Assembly: GCF_000518245.1 (NCBI RefSeq)
Contig: NZ_JADF01000008.1
Span: 152,043-216,042, forward strand
Origin: Brachyspira alvinipulli ATCC 51933
GTDB taxonomy: Bacteria > Spirochaetota > Brachyspiria > Brachyspirales > Brachyspiraceae
Direction: 5' to 3'
DNA: 64,000 nucleotides
In this document: positions 10,324 to 11,896 of the stretch, piece after piece
How positions within the stretch are numbered: position 1 is the stretch's first letter
Layout: each line of letters begins with the position of its first letter
Notes under the pieces: generated by a model
The model's input: the letters and a program-made list of their open reading frames with translations, nothing else
Told to the model about the DNA's origin: nothing
Databases searched by the model: none
Position numbers and translations under genes: made by a program

Positions 10324-10926
10324 TTAAATATTATTATCTAAATCCCATATATCTTTTTTCATAGCATACTCAAAACTGCAGTATTTACTAGATTGTTTCT
10401 GTTCATATTTATTACAAGTATCAAATCTAATATAATTATTTATATAGAACTTATCAAAATCTTTATCGCTTATATTTTTATTATGGACTTTTAAACATTC
10501 TCTCCAACTCTCTAAACAGTCAGCAAAAACAGAGTCAGATTTTTTTATTGATTTTAATACTGTTTCTAATTCACCATATCCATTTACATTCATAATATAA
10601 CATGCAAAATCAACATCGAGTTTAGAAGATTTTTCTAATTTATTTATTGATGTAAGCTCCACATCATCACATACTTTTTTTAAAGCATTATTTATAAACT
10701 CAATTCTTTTATCTATGCCTTCTCTGTCAGCATCTAAAATAATGCCTATTCTATCGTATTTATCAAATTTTATATCTTTTAGTTTTTTATTAAGGTTGTT
10801 TATGCCTTCTAAACATTCAAATTCACAAATACATTGAACATTCACATTATTAATATTATAATATTCAATTAATCTTTCTATAAAAAATTTATCATTCTTA
10901 CTTTCAACTATTATTAAATTATTCAC
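10324..10926 (-). CDS. Small TOPRIM-fold protein (DUF3226-like), partner of the upstream ATPase
   Basis: About 200 residues, beginning NNLIIVESKNDKFFIERL, with the conserved TOPRIM Glu and following Asp, then IGIILDADREG (the DxD metal site) and GYGELETVLKSI, which resembles the GxLEdll motif of DUF3226. Such domains bind Mg2+ and cleave or join nucleic-acid strands. I favour the GTG at 10926: it is preceded by GGAGAG and overlaps the ATPase stop codon (GTGAATAA), giving tight translational coupling. In-frame ATGs at 10941 and 10971 are alternatives with poor ribosome-binding sites. Together with the ATPase it looks like a split OLD nuclease or the AriA-AriB pair of PARIS. Confidence 0.75.
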   Translation of the reverse strand: MNNLIIVESKNDKFFIERLIEYYNINNVNVQCICEFECLEGINNLNKKLKDIKFDKYDRIGIILDADREGIDKRIEFINNALKKVCDDVELTSINKLEKSSKLDVDFACYIMNVNGYGELETVLKSIKKSDSVFADCLESWRECLKVHNKNISDKDFDKFYINNYIRFDTCNKYEQKQSSKYCSFEYAMKKDIWDLDNNI

Positions 10927-11896
10927 CCCTAAACTCTCCATTATTGAGAAGTGCATATCCCAGCTGCTCATTATCTCTGTCTTTTATATTGATAAGACCT
11001 GTTTTTTTGTTTCTATAAAACTCTAAATATAATCCATCATTGTCTTTGTTTTCTTTATTAAAAGCCTCTATACATTCCTTTGAATGAGTAGCTGCAAATA
11101 CCTGACAATTAGCCTCTTTGGATATATCAAAAATTAATTTCCATAACTTAGGATAATTTGTATAATGTATGCCGTTTTCTATTTCATCAATAAATAAATA
11201 TCCGTCCTTACTAGCCCATATAGCACAAATTATAGCAATATATCTATTTATACCCTCACCAAATGAAGATAATAAAACAGGCTTCTCTCTGTCTTTTAAT
11301 TTTAATTTCAATGTTACTTTATTATTATTAAAAATTTGTCTAATACCAATAATATTTTCATCAAATATTTTTAATGAATTATCAATATAATCTTCTTTAC
11401 CTAAATTAGTTAATTGACCATATAAAGATGCAATATATTCTTCATCAGCTTTAAAAGAATGTATAAAATGATAATCATCTTTAATTATAATTTTATCATT
11501 ACAAAAATCGTATATATCTAATTCAAATTCACTATAACCAACAATTAAATTAAAATAAGGAGTAGTAATCATTCTGTTTTCTTTTGAAGGATCTTTTATA
11601 TATATTATTTTTACATTTTTATTATTAGTTTTAATATTGATAATATATTCATCATTATAAAAAAAATCTATATCAATATCATTATTTTGTCTGCTTTTAA
11701 TCATTTGTCTCATATTAATATGAAGCTTCAAAGCATCTTCTGAATATACTGAAAGATTAACTCCTTCCATAAAAGAAGTTTTTCCTACATTGTTCTGTCC
11801 GCCTATTAAATTAACTCTTTTAAAACCATCAAATTCTAATTTTTTAAAGCATTTAAAATTTTCAAAAGATATGTTTTTAACAAAATGATTTTCCAT
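10919..11896 (-). CDS. OLD/AAA_15-type ATPase of a two-gene ATPase-TOPRIM module
   Basis: 325 residues. It opens with the SMC/RecF-like strand ISFENFKCFKKLEF and a Walker A box GGQNNVGKTS (32-41). A signature region LSSFGEGINRYIAI, Walker B YLFIDEIENGIHY and H-switch AATHSKE follow. This is the ABC-like fold of OLD nucleases and of PARIS AriA, but without a fused TOPRIM domain. That activity is instead on the next gene, which overlaps it by eight bases. GAGG lies about six bases before the ATG. A separate promoter (11927-11955) suggests transcription independent of the restriction genes. I infer an anti-phage or nucleic-acid surveillance role. A housekeeping repair role cannot be excluded. 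Confidence 0.8.
   Translation of the reverse strand: MENHFVKNISFENFKCFKKLEFDGFKRVNLIGGQNNVGKTSFMEGVNLSVYSEDALKLHINMRQMIKSRQNNDIDIDFFYNDEYIINIKTNNKNVKIIYIKDPSKENRMITTPYFNLIVGYSEFELDIYDFCNDKIIIKDDYHFIHSFKADEEYIASLYGQLTNLGKEDYIDNSLKIFDENIIGIRQIFNNNKVTLKLKLKDREKPVLLSSFGEGINRYIAIICAIWASKDGYLFIDEIENGIHYTNYPKLWKLIFDISKEANCQVFAATHSKECIEAFNKENKDNDGLYLEFYRNKKTGLINIKDRDNEQLGYALLNNGEFRGE

Follow-up and report, generated by a model that had tools for sequence, protein, structure and literature searches.

Pairs of an ATPase and a TOPRIM protein recur across defense systems, and most of them are unexplained. In PARIS, a hexamer of the ATPase AriA holds the TOPRIM protein AriB, which is released as a tRNase by a phage trigger (PMC12409363), and the published detection rule for this system combines an ATPase scoring over the cut-off for AAA_15 or AAA_21 with a DUF4435 partner of at least 27 bits (PMC9122126). 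AbiL is a lactococcal abortive-infection system composed of an ATPase and a TOPRIM effector (PMC10440598, PMC12409363). Here we analyze a related pair from the gut spirochete Brachyspira alvinipulli ATCC 51933, encoded at positions 10324 to 11896 of a 64,000-nucleotide stretch of contig NZ_JADF01000008.1 (the window), in which an OLD-type ATPase gene is followed by a gene for a small protein of the DUF3226 family. On balance, we favor reading the two genes as an anti-phage module of the AbiL/PDC-M38 type working like PARIS, PDC-M38 being a phage defense candidate in PADLOC-DB.

The ATPase-DUF3226 operon

The upstream member of the pair (10919-11896, minus strand) is a 325-aa OLD-type ABC ATPase resembling AbiLi and PDC-M38A. 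It contains a Walker A motif (G32-GQNNVGKTS-41), an OLD-type GEG region around G213, a Walker B motif (YLFIDEIENG, with D237 and E238), and an H-switch (TH271), and Lys39, Asp237, Glu238, and His271 are kept across diverse homologues. The best Pfam matches were AAA_15 (3.4e-17, 63.6 bits against a cut-off of 32.1) and AAA_21 (1.2e-13, 52.2 bits against a cut-off of 27), followed by related ATPase models; the Pfam scan returned ATPase models only and no nuclease domain. The AlphaFold2 model (predicted local distance difference test [pLDDT] score of 84) matched Rad50, PtuA, and AriA in Foldseek, with E values from 1e-12 to 1e-10.

The second gene (10324-10971, minus strand) encodes 215 aa from its first ATG, or 200 aa from the likely start, GTG 10926. 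Its product carries the TOPRIM motifs VESKND (Glu23) and DADREG (Asp80 and Asp82). Among 24 diverse homologues, Glu23 and Asp80 are invariant and Asp82 is at least 90% conserved, and G133xLE136 is conserved too. The protein matches DUF3226 (PF11536; 9.7e-21, 75 bits, cut-off 27) and, slightly below cut-off, the Pfam Toprim model (1.5e-4), with no DUF4435 match at an E value of 1 or below. In the AlphaFold2 model (pLDDT of 87), the catalytic Glu and the DxD are located where strands 18-22 and 74-80 end, so that Glu23, Asp80, and Asp82 follow the superfamily pattern of a catalytic Glu after strand 1 and a DxD after strand 3. The A3 profile compared with solved structures found PH0156 (2p62) at 2.2e-5 and, weakly, AriB at 0.023, and an hhalign comparison of DUF3226 with DUF4435 aligned the Glu and the DxD of both families (E value of 5e-4, probability of 32%, with a three-sequence profile).

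These results agree with the original prediction for this locus, which had described an ATPase with Walker A, signature, Walker B, and H-switch but no nuclease domain, a TOPRIM core in the next gene, with coordinates and strands that proved right, a partner from DUF3226 rather than DUF4435, and the split logic of OLD and PARIS systems; the possibility that the second protein would turn out not to be TOPRIM was not borne out. What did not hold is the placement of the TOPRIM start within the ATPase stop codon. The first ATG lies 53 nt ahead of the ATPase gene end, and the best start is GTG 10926, which has GGAGAG upstream at good spacing and gives an 8-nt overlap with the ATPase gene (10919-10926, minus strand; GTGAATAA) holding both the TOPRIM GTG and the ATPase stop TAA. 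This layout is kept in all four Brachyspira orthologues examined; the overlap and the GGAGAG suggest that this is the likely start and that the two genes are translationally coupled.

The ATPase gene lies directly upstream, on the same strand, at every sampled DUF3226-family locus (48 further loci), contrary to the concern that the two genes might rarely be adjacent elsewhere. In intact pairs, the intergenic spacing ranges from -53 to +10 nt, with the sole exception of one DUF4276-like case (+64), and gaps beyond that range belong to degraded copies. When the ATPase alone was used as a query, DUF3226 was the next gene at 24 of 40 IMG/VR loci, several of the remaining 16 being fragments or stopping at a contig edge. 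ATPase and TOPRIM tree distances also correlate (mirror-tree r of 0.69, n = 30, with 0.26 as the best of 2000 permutations), partly due to shared ancestry. The ratio of nonsynonymous to synonymous divergence (dN/dS) of both window genes against close orthologues, leaving out the ATPase of genome G018, is 0.07 to 0.18, which points to purifying selection on the pair. Given this ratio and the universal adjacency, the pair is more than a chance arrangement.

A tree of 56 ATPases separates those partnered with DUF3226, as a group, from those partnered with DUF4276, with two exceptions, L043 and L048_2403. The former was rejected as a partner swap, its partner scoring 1.3e-12 for DUF4276 versus 2.4e-5 for DUF3226. 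The latter is a second apparent swap, and the second partner at L048 may be DUF4276-like. Universal adjacency, co-varying trees, and a separate ATPase clade therefore establish the ATPase and DUF3226 as a coherent, real two-gene class, so that a widespread partner family now defines a stable class tied to AbiL and PDC-M38.

A hypervariable region in the ATPase

The central part of the ATPase, codons 51 to 180 (11357-11746, minus strand), between Walker A and the signature, is hypervariable, a feature that is new in this analysis. Between the window and G018, residues 51 to 180 are 38% identical, with indels, compared to 94% for residues 1 to 50, 89% for residues 181 to 325, and 86% for the TOPRIM protein; nonsynonymous divergence (dN) is 0.53 for the middle and 0.03 and 0.05 for the flanks. 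The middle of the ATPase is 28% identical between loci L014 and L023 (flanks 88% and 77%, TOPRIM 86%) and 47% identical between L009 and L019 (flanks 83% and 94%, TOPRIM 89%). The pattern thus recurs in three Brachyspira lineages, with 28 to 47% identity in the middle, 77 to 94% in the cores, and 86 to 89% in the TOPRIM proteins.

Along the L009 and L019 ATPase genes, DNA identity drops sharply from 0.92 to 0.53 and then returns to 0.90. In its C-terminal part, the L009 ATPase is nearest to L019 and L016 (93%); in the middle, L022 (44%) is nearer than L019 (39%). Synonymous divergence (dS) between the window and G018 is 0.68 in the middle, near that of the flanks (0.54 to 0.57), while between G003 and G018 the middle (0.62) stands above the flanks (0.21 to 0.32). 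Either recombination or very fast divergence could have produced the hypervariability.

The same interval, from Walker A to the signature, holds the insert of OLD proteins. Judging by where it lies and how much it varies, the stretch of residues ~51 to 180 is probably a trigger-sensing module that recognizes phage, which marks one part of the ATPase as a likely phage sensor. Because some natural alleles share near-identical cores but differ in the middle, trigger recognition could be tested by swapping this one segment. We further propose, tentatively and at just short of an even chance, that DUF3226 pairs form a separate split-OLD class in which an exchangeable recognition cassette sits between conserved ATPase ends and is swapped or rapidly diversified like restriction specificity domains, the effector and the ATP core remaining unchanged, and that this family unites AbiL with PDC-M38.

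Mobility, genomic context, and alternative roles

DUF3226 was found in 17 of 26 Brachyspira genomes, with at most four matches in each. An orthologous pair adjoins the same type II restriction-modification (R-M) genes in G008 as in the window and adjoins the methyltransferase only in G018, while in G003 and G005 the pair lies at another site with no R-M alongside. The genes flanking the window locus (patatin and thioredoxin) occur in G019 without the pair or any R-M genes, which makes this an empty site, and in G009 and G015 R-M genes occupy the same thioredoxin site without the pair. This patchiness, the differing sites, the empty site, and the occurrence on plasmids described below indicate that the pair is mobile.

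The R-M genes of the window, both on the minus strand and outside the pair, encode an N6-adenine DNA methyltransferase (11999-13243; Pfam N6_Mtase 7.8e-21, PADLOC MTase_II 6.6e-44) and a putative restriction endonuclease (13225-13938) with a PD-ExK-like motif recognized by eye (FPDFLIFTAKKIIAIEIK), a weak match to NERD (0.046), and a match to PHROG 18119 (6.6e-22). The putative endonuclease accompanies the methyltransferase in other Brachyspira; G018 has no endonuclease frame of at least 90 aa between methyltransferase and thioredoxin. The adjacency in the window, G008, and G018, together with the report that PARIS senses an anti-restriction protein (PMC9122126), would suit a four-gene island in which the pair is an accessory of the R-M system, for example by killing cells in response to phage anti-restriction proteins. 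Since the pair and R-M occur apart, the pair without R-M in G003 and G005 and R-M without the pair in G009 and G015, we excluded the R-M genes from the functional unit; the two move independently, and an accessory role is quite improbable.

In PLSDB, the ATPase matched 149 plasmid records, 133 of them from Klebsiella and many of 4,167 bp, and a DUF3226 query matched 110 Klebsiella plasmids. Close inspection of one Klebsiella plasmid showed that it contains genes for replication along with the ATPase and a DUF3226-like gene spanning the record origin. The pair is also present on plasmids of Citrobacter (6.4 kb) and Salmonella (3.8 kb). On these small enterobacterial plasmids (mostly 4.2-kb Klebsiella plasmids; L099, which is NZ_CP070894.1, L198, and L100), the pair is the main cargo. 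Two contigs from metagenome-assembled genomes carry successive ATPase-TOPRIM pairs, three in L049:4950-10842 (titled Thiomargarita) and two in L048:391-4265 (titled Bacteroidales). A scan of viral contigs with P0001 as sole query gave no match.

Broken copies are frequent in Brachyspira. An intact ATPase stands beside a broken TOPRIM gene at no fewer than five loci (L016, L024, L028, L029, and L030), and at two (L026 and L027) the TOPRIM frame is intact and the ATPase broken. These one-gene breaks, more often in the TOPRIM gene, could be due to selection against the effector or to homopolymer assembly errors. They bear on a possible role as a toxin-antitoxin or plasmid-addiction module, in which a constitutive TOPRIM toxin is neutralized by the ATPase and the pair is selected for maintenance of the element rather than for defense. 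Being the main cargo of small plasmids would fit such a role; AbiLii of Fusobacterium nucleatum is toxic in Escherichia coli (PMC3985639), and two AAA:TOPRIM_OLD pairs acted as toxin-antitoxin pairs (PMC10440598). However, breaks of either gene (at least five ATPase-intact and two TOPRIM-intact loci) are unexpected under strict addiction, although this point is weak because faulty assembly could account for them; the hypervariable region suits an ATPase that senses better than one that neutralizes constitutively, and deletion of either PARIS gene was non-toxic (PMC9122126). We consider an addiction role unlikely. A housekeeping function as an OLD-like DNA metabolism pair, comparable to that of Cran1 in archaeal cell cycle progression, is scarcely plausible: non-defense roles are possible for OLD ATPases (PMC12796447), but this pair is patchy, found at multiple sites, plasmid-borne, often broken, and missing from 9 of the 26 Brachyspira genomes.

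Some neighboring and related loci were also recorded. At 7855-10267 of the window, the gene for a 501-aa unannotated protein precedes one for a patatin-like phospholipase, which scores 1.1e-14 for CBASS_lipase, under the cut-off, and these two genes adjoin in G007, G018, and G019 as well. A GNAT protein encoded at 14463-14978 is a relative of the aminoglycoside acetyltransferases of the AAC(6')-Ia family, although its score of 172 bits stays under the cut-off of 265. A record labeled "Acinetobacter phage" in GenBank (L102, CAKLQH020000003.1) holds a homologous pair beside glyQS and other bacterial genes and looks bacterial rather than phage.

Proposed mechanism and comparison with known systems

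The sequences show an ATPase fold, TOPRIM active-site residues, a coupled operon, co-variation, purifying selection, mobility, and central hypervariability. By analogy to AriA/AriB and AbiL, we infer trigger sensing by the ATPase and nuclease arrest by the DUF3226 protein, together with complex formation, a trigger, nuclease activity with its substrate, and an abortive outcome. In the anti-phage module that we favor, the ATPase, as an ATP-dependent dimer or higher oligomer, would act as the sensor, its variable central region recognizing a phage product while its conserved ATP core keeps the TOPRIM protein inactive. Trigger binding and ATP turnover would then release or activate the TOPRIM protein, a predicted two-metal nuclease acting through Glu23 and Asp80/Asp82, which would cut an essential nucleic acid, either tRNA, as AriB does, or DNA, as GajA and OLD do, so that the infected cell stops.

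Several observations weigh against this proposal. In Foldseek, no entry of the PDB or viral libraries matched the TOPRIM model at an E value of 0.001 or below, AriB ranking seventh at 0.025; the TOPRIM assignment is therefore based on its motifs, the Pfam matches, and the profile comparisons. In a comparison of 3' ends, the window TOPRIM frame (end at 10324-10340) stops ~12 residues short of its orthologues, and the missing C-terminal stretch is conserved across the DUF3226 family. Intact relatives exist, and the window copy may be impaired or weakened by this truncation, or the assembly may be wrong. AbiLi of F. nucleatum failed to neutralize AbiLii (PMC3985639), and our literature search turned up no experimental work on a protein bearing the name DUF3226. 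Finally, a defense island setting, which the original prediction had proposed to survey, received modest support on which we do not rely: 71 versus 29 PADLOC families among 80 neighbor versus 80 control proteins, with R-M genes among the controls too.

The idea that this might be a distinct, little-described class stood as far as a coherent two-gene class is concerned and was overstated as to novelty, as PADLOC models it already. The PDC-M38A model matched all 26 ATPases scanned and PDC-M38B matched 25 of 27 DUF3226 proteins, and also the Citrobacter protein at 6.7e-79. The two adjacent window genes match PDC-M38A (2.3e-49) and PDC-M38B (1.8e-10) in both protein content and gene order; the score of 1.8e-10 marks the window TOPRIM protein as a divergent member. 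PDC-M38 is a catalogue entry only, and a literature search found no paper naming it or DUF3226. By these model matches, the ATPase-DUF3226 class is already catalogued as the PDC-M38 candidate, and the AbiLi and AbiLii models match it too.

Judged from those PADLOC models, the AbiL operon of Lactococcus lactis shares the ATPase and TOPRIM arrangement of the window pair. AbiLi (PDLC02336) is the best PADLOC match of the window ATPase, at 1.5e-51, as expected of an AbiLi-type ATPase. The window TOPRIM protein differs in matching the AbiLii model only in part (3.3e-4), whereas the TOPRIM protein of a second Brachyspira lineage (L009) matches nearly the entire model at 3.8e-24. A tblastn search of plasmids with an AbiLii-like Brachyspira protein, aimed at the lactococcal AbiLii, gave no match.

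Gabija GajA, Class 1 OLD, and HEC-04/IbfA have the OLD ATPase and TOPRIM in common with the window pair. They are single-chain fusions, whereas the window pair is split and has no GajB helicase partner; OLD classes 1 to 3, defined by an ATPase-TOPRIM fusion, were rejected, as two genes are present in the window and at the intact loci examined. Pairs of an ATPase with DUF4276 are likewise split into an OLD-type ATPase and a small TOPRIM-like partner but belong to a different ATPase clade and a different partner family. PARIS (OLD class 4) also has split ATPase and TOPRIM genes. The window ATPase exceeds the AAA_15 and AAA_21 cut-offs of the PARIS detection rule at the scores given above, but membership was rejected, as the rule needs DUF4435 and the partner here is DUF3226. 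AriA is also longer (464 aa versus 325 aa). Although membership in PARIS fails, the arrangement of the pair and its predicted catalytic residues, a Glu and a DxD that align with those of DUF4435, are PARIS-like.
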